64,000 nt of DNA, from assembly GCA_903945325.1 (NCBI GenBank), contig CAJAVE010000131.1, forward strand, positions 1 to 64,000, in the 5' to 3' direction. The translations under genes and the position numbers were made by a program. The notes beneath the pieces were generated by a model, which saw only the letters and a program-made list of their open reading frames with translations, had not been told where the DNA came from and did no database searches. The stretch is from an uncultured beta proteobacterium (GTDB taxonomy: Bacteria > Pseudomonadota > Gammaproteobacteria > Burkholderiales > Burkholderiaceae_C). Positions 3,564 through 64,000 of this stretch are shown here, one piece after another. The number at the start of each line of letters is the position of its first letter. Within the stretch, counting starts at the first letter, position 1.

Positions 3564-4592
3564 ATGGCCCACGCCTTTGAGTCGCTCACTCCGGACGTTG
3601 TACTTGACGCACTGGACAGTGTGGGTCTGCGCGGCGACGGCCGCCTGACCGCCCTGTCGTCGTATGAGAACCGCGTCTACCAGGTTCAACTGGAAGACGG
3701 CAGCGCCGTGGTGGCCAAGTTTTACCGGCCAGACCGCTGGAGCGACCTGCAGATTCAGGAGGAGCACGACTTTGCCGCCGAGCTGATGGCCGCCGAGGTG
3801 CCTGCCGTCGGGCCGCTTCAACTACTGGGGGCCACTTTGCACCACTTCGGCGGCTTCACCTTCAGCGTCAGCCCGCGCCGGGGTGGCCGCGCGCCCGAGC
3901 TGGACGATGGCGAAGTGCTGGAGTGGATTGGCCGCTTTCTGGCGCGCATCCACACCGTGGGTGCCAAGAAGCCATTTGCCAGCCGCCCGCGCCTGGACGT
4001 GCAGAGCTTTGGCGTGGAGTCCATGCAATGGCTACTGGAGCATGACAAGGTGCCGCTGGATGTGCAGTCAAGCTGGACCAGGGTCTGCACAAGTGCTATT
4101 GATCTGGTAGCTGGTTACGCAGTATTGACGGGGTCTAGAAGCCAAAAAGACCCTGAAAATTCCGGCATCCGCATTCTGCGCCTGCATGGCGACTGCCACC
4201 CCGGCAATATTTTGTGGACCCCGGCAAACGCGGCAGCAGCTGCCGGACCCGGCCCGCACTTTGTGGACCTGGACGACGCACGGTCCGGCCCCGCCGTGCA
4301 GGACCTGTGGATGCTGCTCAGCGGCGACCGCAGCCAGCGCACCCGCCAGCTCGGCATGCTGATCGACGGCTACGAACAGTTTCGCGACTTTGACCGCGCC
4401 GAGCTGGTGCTGATTGAACCCCTGCGCACGCTGCGCCTGATCCACTACAGCGCCTGGCTGGCCCGGCGCTGGGACGACCCCACCTTCCCGGTCAACTTTC
4501 CGTGGTTTGGCTCCAGCGACTACTGGCAGGGGCAGGTGCAGATGCTGGAGGAACAGGTGGAGGCGATGCAGGAAGAGCCGCTGGTGGTGTAG
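3564..4592 (+). CDS. srkA: Stress response serine/threonine kinase (YihE/SrkA/RdoA family)
   Basis: MAHAFESLTPDVVLDALDSVGL...SYENRVYQV...LHGDCHPGNILW...FVDLDDARSGP. Contains an internal repeat A copy. Confidence 0.88.
   Translation: MAHAFESLTPDVVLDALDSVGLRGDGRLTALSSYENRVYQVQLEDGSAVVAKFYRPDRWSDLQIQEEHDFAAELMAAEVPAVGPLQLLGATLHHFGGFTFSVSPRRGGRAPELDDGEVLEWIGRFLARIHTVGAKKPFASRPRLDVQSFGVESMQWLLEHDKVPLDVQSSWTRVCTSAIDLVAGYAVLTGSRSQKDPENSGIRILRLHGDCHPGNILWTPANAAAAAGPGPHFVDLDDARSGPAVQDLWMLLSGDRSQRTRQLGMLIDGYEQFRDFDRAELVLIEPLRTLRLIHYSAWLARRWDDPTFPVNFPWFGSSDYWQGQVQMLEEQVEAMQEEPLVV
4095..4143 (+). repeat. Repeat A copy inside srkA (sense)
   Basis: gctattgatctggtagctggttacgcagtattgacggggtctagaagcc; same architecture and 49 bp length as 11640-11688. 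Confidence 0.85.
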
Positions 4593-5195: not shown

Positions 5196-6848
5196 TTGAC
5201 AAACCCGATTCGGTTACGCTTGCACAGCCTCCCCTGCACTGGACCCGTTTTGACCCCATTTTTCAAACAAAAAAGTGCTCTAGCCCTCTCGGTTATTGCG
5301 CAAGCAGCTATATTAATAATAGCAACTTGTGCTGCGTCCGGTGCCACCGCCCAGGCATCGGTCGAGGGTGTGAACACCGCCAATGCCACCTTGCCCAACC
5401 TGGGCGACGGCACGGACATGACTCCGAGTTCCGAACGCAGGCTGGGCGACCGCATCGCTCGCGAGTTGTACCGCGACCCCGACTACGTGGACGACGCCAT
5501 CCTCACCGAGTATGTGCAGGGCATCTGGCAGCCCTTGCTGGCGGCAGCCCGCCAGCGCGGTGACCTGACACCGGAACTGGATGAGGCCTATGCGTGGGAG
5601 GTTTTGCTGGGCCGCGACCGCACCGTCAATGCCTTTGCCCTGCCCGGCGCCTATCTGGGTCTGCACTTGGGACTGGTGGGCGTGGTGACCAGCCGCGATG
5701 AACTCGCCTCTGTTCTGGCGCACGAACTCAGCCATGTCACGCAGCGCCACATCGCCCGCAGGATGACCCAGCAGAGCCAGCAGGCGCCATGGATGATCGG
5801 CGCGATGATTCTGGGGGTGTTGGCAGCCAGCAAAAGCCCGGACGCGGCCAACGCCATGATCGTCGGTGGCCAGGCAGCGGGCGCGCAAAGTCAGCTCAAT
5901 TTCTCCCGCGATATGGAGCGCGAGGCCGACCGCGTGGGCTTTGGTGTGTCTACCCAGGCCGGCTTTGCGCCACAGGGTTTTGTTTCCATGTTTGGCAAGT
6001 TGCAACAAGCGTCACGCCTGAATGATTCGGGTAACTTTCCCTATTTGCGCAGCCACCCACTGAGCACCGAGCGCATGGCCGACATGCAGTCTCGTATTGA
6101 CTTGCCGGATGGCGGTTCTCCAGCGCCAACTGCCGGGCGTAAAAACGTCCCGGAAGTGGACCACGCCATGATTTCGGCACGTGCCCGCGTACTGTCCAAC
6201 GCAACGGTGGACGCCTTACGGACCTGGTCGCGCGAGGTGGATGCCGACCACCGCAAGCGCCAGTCGCCGGTGCAGCAGGCAGCATCCCTTTACGGTGCCA
6301 CCCTGGCCGCTGTCAAATTGCGCGATTTCACCGAGGCGCAGGTCCAGTGGGCGCGTCTGGGTGAGCAGGTGCGGGGTGACAGGGCCGCAGAGCGGTTGGC
6401 GCGACTCTTGGGCGTTGAGTTGATGCTGGCCAAGGGTGACAATGTGCAGGCCCTTCAGTTGCTTGGCAGTGGTGCGGGCATGCAGGCCAAGTCAAACCGG
6501 GCCGAGCTGTTCCTGGCAGCGCAGGCCAGATTGGCCACCAACAATGGCTTGGACACCGTCACCCAGGATTTGCGCGTTTGGGTAGCCGAGCATCCGCGCG
6601 ACGCGCAAGCCTGGCAATTGCTATCGAATGCCTATGCCGCGCAGGGGCGAACACTGAGTTCGATCCGGGCCCAGGCGGAAATCAATATGGCCCATCTGGA
6701 TTACCCGGCGGCTCTCAGCCGTTTCAAGGCGGCACAGGAGTGGGCGCGCAGGGATGGCGCGGGCACCGACCACTTTGAGGCGTCGATTGTCGACACCCGC
6801 ACCCGCCAGGTTGAACTACTGGTTCGGGAACAGGCGCTGGAGCGCTGA
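5196..6848 (+). CDS. M48 family metalloprotease (BepA/YfgC-like, TPR C-terminus); start uncertain, TTG 5196 or TTG 5250
   Basis: HELSHVTQRH zinc motif, EREADRVGF, signal-peptide-like N-terminus. No in-frame ATG near the N-terminus; TTG 5250 gives MTPFFKQKSALALSVIAQAAILIIATCAASGATAQA. Confidence 0.88.
   Translation: MTNPIRLRLHSLPCTGPVLTPFFKQKSALALSVIAQAAILIIATCAASGATAQASVEGVNTANATLPNLGDGTDMTPSSERRLGDRIARELYRDPDYVDDAILTEYVQGIWQPLLAAARQRGDLTPELDEAYAWEVLLGRDRTVNAFALPGAYLGLHLGLVGVVTSRDELASVLAHELSHVTQRHIARRMTQQSQQAPWMIGAMILGVLAASKSPDAANAMIVGGQAAGAQSQLNFSRDMEREADRVGFGVSTQAGFAPQGFVSMFGKLQQASRLNDSGNFPYLRSHPLSTERMADMQSRIDLPDGGSPAPTAGRKNVPEVDHAMISARARVLSNATVDALRTWSREVDADHRKRQSPVQQAASLYGATLAAVKLRDFTEAQVQWARLGEQVRGDRAAERLARLLGVELMLAKGDNVQALQLLGSGAGMQAKSNRAELFLAAQARLATNNGLDTVTQDLRVWVAEHPRDAQAWQLLSNAYAAQGRTLSSIRAQAEINMAHLDYPAALSRFKAAQEWARRDGAGTDHFEASIVDTRTRQVELLVREQALER
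5276..5323 (-). repeat. Repeat A copy in the signal-peptide region of the M48 protease (antisense)
   Basis: tgctctagccctctcggttattgcgcaagcagctatattaataatagc; reverse complement matches the family (GCTATTATTAATATAGCTGCTTGCGCAATAACC...GGGCTAGAGC). Confidence 0.9.
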
Positions 6849-11629: not shown

Positions 11630-11639
11630 GGCTAAATAT

Positions 11640-11688
11640 GCTATTGTTTTTATAGCTGCTTACGCAGTATTCACGGGGGCTAAAGGCC
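11640..11688 (+). repeat. Repeat A copy, intergenic between the DUF3833 and SDR genes
   Basis: gctattgtttttatagctgcttacgcagtattcacgggggctaaaggcc. Confidence 0.9.
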
Positions 11689-11711
11689 AATTTCATTTAA
11701 AAACAGGCCGT

Positions 11712-27271: not shown

Positions 27272-27295
27272 GTTGGCAGGGATTTGACTCAATTT

Positions 27296-27344
27296 GCTAT
27301 GAAAATGAGAGCTTGTTACGCACATTTGACGGGGTCTAGGGGGT
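27296..27344 (+). repeat. Repeat A copy supplying the stop codon of the small ORF 27336-27506
   Basis: gctatgaaaatgagagcttgttacgcacatttgacggggtctagggggt. Confidence 0.75.
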
Positions 27345-27506
27345 ATTTTCGTCAGCAATTTCCCCGGTGGATGCAGTTTTGGGGGCATCCAGCGCAGGAT
27401 CGGCTTCCACTATCTCGCCATGCTTGCGGCCTGAAAACATGGTCCACCAAATGATCCCTACGAGAATCAGCCCTGCACCAAGGGCTTCCAGCAATAGCAA
27501 GGTCAT
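27336..27506 (-). CDS. Small single-TM protein (56 aa)
   Basis: MTLLLLEALGAGLILVGIIWWTMFSGRKHGEIVEADPALDAPKTASTGEIADENTP with SD-like AGGAG ~6 nt before ATG; overlaps the mltA 5' end. Confidence 0.6.
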   Translation of the reverse strand: MTLLLLEALGAGLILVGIIWWTMFSGRKHGEIVEADPALDAPKTASTGEIADENTP

Positions 27507-29670: not shown

Positions 29671-29680
29671 GGTGTTAAAT

Positions 29681-29730
29681 CGGGCTGCAGCCCCCGTGAA
29701 ATGTGCGCAGCTAGCTATAATAATCATAGC
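29681..29730 (-). repeat. Repeat A copy, intergenic between cheV and the indolepyruvate oxidoreductase gene
   Basis: cgggctgcagcccccgtgaaatgtgcgcagctagctataataatcatagc; reverse complement matches the family. Confidence 0.88.
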
Positions 29731-56402: not shown

Positions 56403-57584
56403 ATGGCCATCCTCGCTGTCAACGCCGGTTCATCGACCCTCAAATTCTCCCTTCATCCACGCCACGGCGCGCAGGCGTTGCCCAGCGTGCTGAGTGGCAA
56501 TATCCAGGGTCTGGAGCCTGGTGGCTCGCCCGAGATGGGTTGGTCGTTCAATGGTGTGTCGCACAAGCAAACGCTGGCTGCAGGCGAGGGCAGCCCCTTT
56601 GCACGCGCACTCGTCGCGCTGCGCACGCTACTGGCGACCGAACCCGGCGTGCCTGCCATCGAAGTCGTGGCGCACCGCGTGGTGCATGGTGGGGCGGACT
56701 ACTCGGCCAGTGTCATCGTCACGCCTGAGGTGTTGGCACACCTCACGCAACTGAACTCGCTGGCACCCTTGCACCAGCCGCACAACCTGGAAGGCGTGCG
56801 CGCCTTCCAGCAGGCCTTTCCCGAATTACCGCAGATCGCCTGTTTTGACACGGCCTTTCACGCCACGCTGGCCGAAGTGGACTATGCATTTGCTTTGCCC
56901 CAAGCGCTGGCCGACGAGGGCGTGCGCCGCTACGGCTTCCATGGTTTGTCGTATCAGTTCATCATGGACACGCTGCTGGAGCGCAGCCCGCGCGCCCGTG
57001 GCCGCGTGCTGATGGCCCATTTGGGCAATGGCGCCAGTCTGTGCGCCGCGCGTGATGGCAAAAGTTGCGCCACCACCATGGGTTTCTCGGCGGTCGATGG
57101 GCTGATGATGGGCACCCGCACCGGCGCACTGGACCCCGGCGTCATCCTCTACCTGCTGGAGCAGGGCTGGGACCACAAACGCCTGCAAAACCTGCTCTAC
57201 AAGCAAAGTGGCTTGCTAGGCGTGTCCGGCATTTCGGCTGACATGCGCCGCCTGCGGGCCGAGTCCAACCCTGCTGCGCAAAAGGCCATCGCCATGTTCA
57301 CCCACCGGGTGGTGCGCGAAAGCGGCGCCCTGGTTGCCTGTCTGGGCGGCCTGGATGTACTGGCCTTCAGCGGTGGCATTGGCGAACATGACGCCGTACT
57401 GCGCGCCGATGTCTGCACACAGCTGGGATATCTGGGTGTGCACATTGACCCGGTCCTCAACGCAGCAGCGGTGGGTGATGCGGTCATGCCGGTACACCTG
57501 CCGCAGAGCACAGTTGAAGTGTGGGTCGTGCCCACCGACGAAGGCCGCGTTGCCGCGCGGGATGCTGCGCGACTGATTTTTTAG
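56403..57584 (+). CDS. ackA: Acetate/propionate kinase family protein
   Basis: MAILAVNAGSSTLKFSL, AHRVVHGG, HLGNGASLCA, DGLMMGTRTGALDPG. Confidence 0.95.
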   Translation: MAILAVNAGSSTLKFSLHPRHGAQALPSVLSGNIQGLEPGGSPEMGWSFNGVSHKQTLAAGEGSPFARALVALRTLLATEPGVPAIEVVAHRVVHGGADYSASVIVTPEVLAHLTQLNSLAPLHQPHNLEGVRAFQQAFPELPQIACFDTAFHATLAEVDYAFALPQALADEGVRRYGFHGLSYQFIMDTLLERSPRARGRVLMAHLGNGASLCAARDGKSCATTMGFSAVDGLMMGTRTGALDPGVILYLLEQGWDHKRLQNLLYKQSGLLGVSGISADMRRLRAESNPAAQKAIAMFTHRVVRESGALVACLGGLDVLAFSGGIGEHDAVLRADVCTQLGYLGVHIDPVLNAAAVGDAVMPVHLPQSTVEVWVVPTDEGRVAARDAARLIF

Positions 57585-57590
57585 GCGAAT

Positions 57591-57640
57591 CGGGCTCCAG
57601 CCCTCGTTAAATATGCGCAACCAGCTATAAAATTGATAGC
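57591..57640 (-). repeat. Repeat A copy, intergenic after ackA
   Basis: cgggctccagccctcgttaaatatgcgcaaccagctataaaattgatagc. Confidence 0.9.
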
Positions 57641-57652
57641 GTTTTATCAGAT

Positions 57653-62157: not shown

Positions 62158-62230
62158 GCCCCCACGCTCCACCGTTGCACGGGTCGCTGCCCCCCGAGGG
62201 GGCTGACCTGCCTTGGGGCGGCCCGGCGGC
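62158..62230 (+). repeat. Repeat B copy 2 occupying the purE-purK intergenic gap
   Basis: gagcccccacgctccaccgttgcacgggtcgctgccccccgagggggctgacctgccttggggcggcccggcggc-type; 73 bp like copy 1. Confidence 0.85.
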
Positions 62231-63401: not shown

Positions 63402-64000
63402 ATGATTCTGCCTGCATCCGCTCCTGAATCCATAGCTGCTTGCGCAATAACCATAAGGGCTGGAGGCCTTTTTGGCATGCCAACCGAGACCGTTTATGGG
63501 CTGGGAGCCGATGCCGACAACGACGCCGCGGTGGCCAAAATTTTTGCCGCGAAGGGCCGCCCGACGGATCACCCGCTGATCGTGCATATCGCGTCCCATG
63601 ATGGCGGCATGTCCGGCGTGGCCCACTATGCAGCCCAGGTGCCGCCGTACGCGCAGCAACTGATGTCGGCCTTCTGGCCGGGGCCGCTGACGCTGATCCT
63701 GCCACGTCGCCCTGGCGTGGGAGCTGCCAGTGCGGGTGGTCAAAATTCCATTGGCCTGCGTTGCCCGGCCCATCCGGCCGCACAAGCGGTACTACGCGCC
63801 TTGCGCGACACGTCCGGCGGCCAGACGCCGGTGTGGGGCATTGCCGCACCCAGTGCCAACCGGTTTGGTCGCGTCAGCCCGACTACGGCGGCCCATGTGG
63901 ACAGCGAGTTGGGACCGGACCTGCTGGTTCTGGACGGCGGGCCCTGTGACCTGGGCATCGAGTCCACCATCATCGACTGCACGCGCGGCGCACCGGTTTT
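63402..64000 (+). CDS. L-threonylcarbamoyladenylate synthase (Sua5/YrdC/TsaC), truncated at window end
   Basis: Manual translation from ATG 63402: MILPASAPESIAACAITIRAGGLFGMPTETVYGLGADADNDAAVAKIFAAKGRPTDHPLIVHIAS. Confidence 0.93.
   Translation, partial: MILPASAPESIAACAITIRAGGLFGMPTETVYGLGADADNDAAVAKIFAAKGRPTDHPLIVHIASHDGGMSGVAHYAAQVPPYAQQLMSAFWPGPLTLILPRRPGVGAASAGGQNSIGLRCPAHPAAQAVLRALRDTSGGQTPVWGIAAPSANRFGRVSPTTAAHVDSELGPDLLVLDGGPCDLGIESTIIDCTRGAPV
63431..63468 (+). repeat. Repeat A copy inside the sua5/tsaC N-terminus (sense)
   Basis: catagctgcttgcgcaataaccataagggctggaggcc; matches the repeat core, left GCTAT arm not preserved. Confidence 0.75.

Follow-up and report, generated by a model that had tools for sequence, protein, structure and literature searches.

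Can the export signal of a conserved bacterial quality-control protease of the envelope be encoded in part by a short repeat that is dispersed through the genome in hundreds of copies? The question is raised by 64,000 nucleotides of an uncultured Rhodoferax-group member of the Burkholderiaceae_C (positions 1 to 64,000 of contig CAJAVE010000131.1, assembly GCA_903945325.1; here, the window), for which an initial annotation had proposed that an M48 protease owes the hydrophobic core of its signal peptide to a repeat copy. The proposal held: the DNA at the 5' end of this gene is a real member of a repeat family of about 60 bp, it lies in frame, and the start codon that brings it into the protein, TTG 5250, is supported. 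We consider it highly probable that the protease took the repeat into use as its export signal, that selection tuned it, and that the lineage's own subfamily served to renew it.

A repeat copy encodes the core of a proposed signal peptide in a BepA-like protease

The protease carries an M48 domain (PF01435; E value of 3.7e-29; 102.3 bits against a cutoff of 20.3) and matches the BepA structure 6sar in the PDB (E value of 3e-31). The NCBIfam BepA model aligned over 35-521 with 233.8 bits (E value of 3.6e-69); because this score is under the equivalog cutoff of 570, we refer to the protein as BepA-like and not as BepA.

Using an nhmmer profile built without those window copies that contain the exact core, the protease copy among them, we detected eight matching places in the window at an E value of ≤2e-4 (Table 1 gives seven copies). 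When the 13-bp core AGCTGCTTGCGCA of the protease copy was masked, its flanks still scored 38.5, compared with a maximum of -6.8 for 20,000 random 66-mers of the window. The core itself occurs in 154 exact copies across the 4,692,830-bp genome, versus 0 for the reversed control. The consensus of the family is TT....GtcAAAT.gGCCTCTAGCCCCCGTggAaa.TGCGCAAGCAGCTAT.AAAtt.ATAGCAA.

As annotated, the hydrophobic segment ALALSVIAQAAILIIA is encoded exactly by the repeat; its coordinates had been given as 5276-5323, a shift by one base that would yield CSSPLGYCASSYINNS (correct, 5277-5324). The repeat runs beyond the core on both sides and also encodes the preceding FKQKS. The predicted N terminus has the layout of a Sec signal peptide, with a positive n-region (MTPFFKQKS), the uncharged hydrophobic core, and a c-region (ATAQA) that falls downstream of the repeat. 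Homology to solved BepA chains starts at residue 23 to 47 of the protease.

Table 1. Coordinates of the protease gene, its proposed signal peptide, and the repeat copies in the window
Feature	Position	Strand	Basis
BepA-like M48 metalloprotease gene, start TTG 5250	5250..6848	+	Pfam, NCBIfam, and PDB matches; ortholog starts
Leader directly before TTG: CTGGACCCGTT in the window, CTGGAYYCRTT-like in relatives	5239..5249	+	Ortholog DNA; function inferred
Proposed signal peptide MTPFFKQKSALALSVIAQAAILIIATCAASGATAQA, A-Q-A cleavage motif	5250..5357	+	Sequence; BepA homology
Repeat-encoded hydrophobic core ALALSVIAQAAILIIA	5277..5324	+	Grand average of hydropathy (GRAVY) 2.51; zero charged residues
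Repeat copy at protease 5' end	5264..5325	+	nhmmer 44.4 bits, E 7.1e-12; + strand orientation TGCGCAAGCAGCT
Second in-gene copy, antisense, in frame within serine/threonine kinase open reading frame 3564-4592	4094..4155	-	nhmmer 33.3 bits
Family copy	11639..11701	-	nhmmer 52.5 bits
Family copy	27294..27355	-	nhmmer 26.2 bits
Family copy	29672..29730	+	nhmmer 38.2 bits
Family copy	57579..57641	+	nhmmer 48.9 bits
Family copy	63420..63478	-	nhmmer 44.5 bits

Translation start of the protease

Whether the repeat is translated depends on the start codon. TTG 5196 and TTG 5250 had been named as the only candidates; the reading frame also offers TTG 5220 upstream and GTG 5370, TTG 5391, and ATG 5418 downstream, and the choice of TTG 5250 stands as the best-supported one. 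A TTG occupies the equivalent position in 29 of 80 named protease loci, many of them titled Rhodoferax, that we fetched for comparison. It is the sole upstream start in six orthologs: the reading frame of L063 and L066 is interrupted two codons ahead of it, and in L129, L062, L040, and L069 no alternative start lies between it and the upstream stop. Starts downstream of 5323, which the initial annotation had recognized as fatal to its proposal, are not conserved. These comparisons give good support to TTG 5250 as the translation start.

In the divergent moaC/protease interval, the alternative TTG 5196 is part of a TTGACA (5196-5201) similar to a -35 box; a promoter scan reported no + strand promoter at 5196-5201.

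Reading frame and hydrophobicity of the repeat

To describe the family beyond the window, we fetched 90 stretches around core copies (30 + 60), which together with the window gave 94 distinct contexts. The counts within genes rest on these 94 sampled copies and on a nonstandard caller, a small gene finder trained on the genome's own stretches, so that the division into genic and intergenic copies depends on that gene finder. By this measure, 54 copies are intergenic and 32, about a third, lie wholly within predicted genes, nearly all sense ones in the same frame (19 of 21 share one phase); the earlier description of the repeat as "intergenic-type" was thus half right. All fully genic copies exceeded the random-DNA null on their flanks alone; a few scored low relative to family members. 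The frame used by the signal peptide contains a stop in 11 of the 94 copies, against 30 and 91 for the other two sense frames, and reads roughly xNxPLAxVxxAQAAIxxIA. Four predicted genes (L011, L143, L171, and L193) terminate within a repeat copy, in the frame where a CTAG-like motif gives a stop.

Against this background, the protease copy is exceptionally hydrophobic: its GRAVY value in the signal frame is above those of all 54 intergenic copies (mean, 0.89; maximum, 2.24). The 30 orthologs with the segment have a mean of 1.75 and no stop in this frame (Mann-Whitney P = 2e-8 versus the intergenic copies, uncorrected for relatedness). Selection may have caused this difference.

Conservation at the locus and lineage-specific versions

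A genus-level search gave a protease match in 102 of 103 genomes, a few of them only weak and probably paralogous. Many orthologs of the Rhodoferax group and two of the Acidovorax clade have the repeat segment at the same position, and in the N-terminal region 24 of 96 distinct orthologs outscored, in the same register, every one of 960 codon-shuffled controls. The relatives with this segment also carry the repeat family; the same sequence in relatives lacking the family, which would have spoken against the initial proposal, was not what we found.

The locus copies were compared with position weight matrices (PWMs) of repeat subfamilies, with the search-pattern (core) columns masked. Copies from the window's close relatives fit the PWM of their own genome best, four clade 2 Rhodoferax copies (L091, L094, L102, and L117) fit that of genome G107, L091 fitting the Acidovorax-clade PWM almost equally, and the two Acidovorax-clade copies (L096 and L109) fit the PWM from G103/G105 best; several others were ambiguous or fit every subfamily poorly. 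Since the best fit of most locus copies is to the subfamily of their own lineage, the comparison favors renewal at one site, by re-insertion or gene conversion, over a single copy diverging alone.

The following course of events would account for these results. A dispersed repeat came to occupy the 5' end of the bepA-like gene in the Rhodoferax/Acidovorax group, and its open frame, slightly changed, would make the n- and h-regions of a Sec signal peptide, which would then drive export. The host gene would have retained its own upstream leader and start region and supplied the c-region downstream. Under selection, the frame would have stayed open and become more hydrophobic, through proline-to-leucine changes (CCC to CTC or CTT) and the loss of AAA codons, and gene conversion or re-insertion would have renewed the locus copy with sequence of the lineage's own subfamily. 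Exaptation as an export signal, as first suggested for this locus, draws support from the conservation of the locus across species, from the excess hydrophobicity over noncoding copies, and from a second protein family described below.

Several observations weigh against this account. The 30 orthologs in the hydrophobicity test were picked by eye as segment carriers, and signal peptides must be hydrophobic in any case, so the test shows fitness for the role more than history; with the orthologs also interrelated, the GRAVY difference does not by itself reveal the path taken. In a quick tree built from the mature part, high-scoring orthologs are scattered over both large clades and the Acidovorax clade, with intermediate scores between them. 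The repeat-carrying label changes 17 times on the gene tree, a pattern that a single insertion with later decay and repeated insertions would both fit. In L045/L067, a TGA marks the repeat's left edge, and the start must lie inside the repeat.

Repeat copies in other genes

Host genes of other in-gene copies, named by NCBIfam or Pfam, include those for LolD, TruB, glucose-6-phosphate isomerase (Pgi), ProA, guanine deaminase, and a Kdo transferase; family members therefore do occur in frame within conserved genes. The kinase gene of the window that holds the second in-gene copy is matched by NCBIfam PRK11768 (340 residues aligned to 320 model positions); a look for its orthologs within 3 kb of the protease loci, as empty-site candidates, gave none. 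The TruB copy covers a linker, and many relatives have the repeat-type segment in this linker too (L186, 1048-1968; L296-L325); repeat-type and ordinary-type segments are of equal length across aligned orthologs, a hint that the one may replace the other. TruB was considered as a possible origin of the repeat family.

A 306-amino-acid protein family without a Pfam or NCBIfam match has repeat-encoded signal peptides (MKNWPLALVFIAQAAINFVVTAAPAWAANY and MPNWPLAPVRYAQAAIICIASLASVWAADY) in the genome of the window and several relatives. Its distant orthologs have short ordinary signal peptides, such as MQHTFLTWLFTGMAWAAGAQAADY, and the repeat-type ones are a few residues longer. Near the predicted N terminus of a penicillin-binding protein 1C (L010, 1-1599, minus strand), the translation of an antisense copy is AKAIAIFLIAACAHSTGSTAQF, possibly a membrane anchor that the repeat encodes.

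In G107, an in-frame ATG lies 11 codons ahead of the core in 10 of 30 sampled copies, and the frame that it starts is open through the hydrophobic part in 9 of the 30. The repeat might accordingly be a portable signal peptide cassette, with one sense frame and in some copies its own ATG, that spreads through genomes, has provided at least two exported proteins with a signal, and is replaced at the bepA site by the version of each lineage; we regard this broader proposal as rather unlikely.

Other explanations for the protease copy

An existing signal peptide might instead have been converted in place to the lineage repeat by biased recombination, in the manner of uptake sequence dialects. This explanation concerns the origin of the copy, leaves room for a role of the copy in export, and is a serious possibility, if somewhat on the doubtful side. 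It would account for the match of most locus copies to their own subfamily and for the equal lengths in TruB. The conserved unit of about 60 bp is, however, far above the 10 to 12 bp of known uptake sequences, and the repeat-type signal peptides of the 306-amino-acid family exceed the ordinary ones in length. Lineage dialects of a dispersed motif do exist in the uptake sequences of the Neisseriaceae (PMC3630211).

That the repeat simply landed in frame in a permissive signal peptide region, as a neutral passenger and one of many in-gene copies, is improbable. Such tolerance is seen elsewhere, since the genic third of the copies includes cytoplasmic enzymes without a possible signal role (LolD, TruB, Pgi, ProA, and guanine deaminase), but the signal peptide of the protease has no other long hydrophobic core than this segment, which has been kept open and hydrophobic across lineages and which in the window surpasses every intergenic copy in hydrophobicity. 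It is very improbable that the copy is untranslated and the enzyme cytoplasmic, with the real start at GTG 5370 or at ATG 5418, the first in-frame ATG: the conserved stretch LPNLGD lies upstream of ATG 5418, its methionine is missing in several orthologs (e.g., NSITP in L068), the orthologs' frame is open upstream of it, and BepA is a periplasmic enzyme.

The initial annotation had further suggested that a DNA or RNA hairpin is coupled to the first codons of the gene. This part found no support: the family alignment contains no compensatory pairs, a five-pair stem is intact in only 16 of 27 orthologs, and the z score of a single-sequence fold is modest (-2.5). With neither covariation nor a retained stem, an RNA hairpin at the repeat was rejected.

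Relationship to known small repeats

The nearest precedent is YPO1552 of Yersinia, whose predicted signal peptide is partly formed by the small mobile sequence RU-2/YPAL and is unrelated to the signal peptides of its relatives in other genera (Delihas 2007, PMC2759123; reviewed in PMC2229807). A signal peptide derived in part from a mobile repeat is therefore already known. That 168-bp element was reported for one putative exported protein in two Yersinia species, whereas the repeat of about 60 bp described here contributes to a conserved BepA-like protease across many species and to a second family, in lineage-specific versions.

Rickettsia palindromic elements (RPEs) likewise occur in frame in conserved protein genes and between genes (Ogata et al. 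2000, as relayed in PMC2229807). By that secondhand account, RPEs are 105 to 146 bp long with long stem-loops and terminal inverted repeats, whereas the present family is shorter, has little conserved structure, and adds no length in TruB. Terminal inverted repeats, as in RPEs or miniature inverted-repeat transposable elements, were not seen by eye: the consensus ends TT....GtcAAAT and ATAGCAAt are not inverted copies. A link to repetitive extragenic palindrome-associated tyrosine transposases was considered, and the genome contains one Y1_Tnp gene. The DNA uptake sequences of the Neisseriaceae resemble the repeat in that a dispersed motif has lineage-specific versions (PMC3630211). Uptake sequences are motifs of 10 to 12 bp with a known role in transformation.

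Small bacterial repeats that became working protein parts are few and mostly known from hypothetical proteins. A conserved envelope protease in a much-sequenced group would allow mobile repeats to be tested directly as functional export signals. The family is abundant, with covariance-model counts per genome that are lower bounds (at least 150 where 150 matches were scored), and we found no name for it in the open-licence papers that we searched. Rfam gave nothing near a gathering score at the protease locus. Searching for a pattern guessed as a GC-rich back-translation gave no matches, which was to be expected because the real DNA is AT-richer.

BRE, a dispersed repeat of Bordetella and Comamonadaceae, also has some copies within coding sequences (PMC3110155). 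It is about 90 bp long, 69% GC in Bordetella, often in tandem, and its copy number does not exceed 29 (4 in Rhodoferax ferrireducens); by this description, it looks different from the present family, whose copies are shorter, of visibly lower GC content, and more numerous. The window also contains a GC-rich 73-bp repeat pair (863-935 and 62158-62230; 88% identical) that, again by description, is possibly of the BRE kind.
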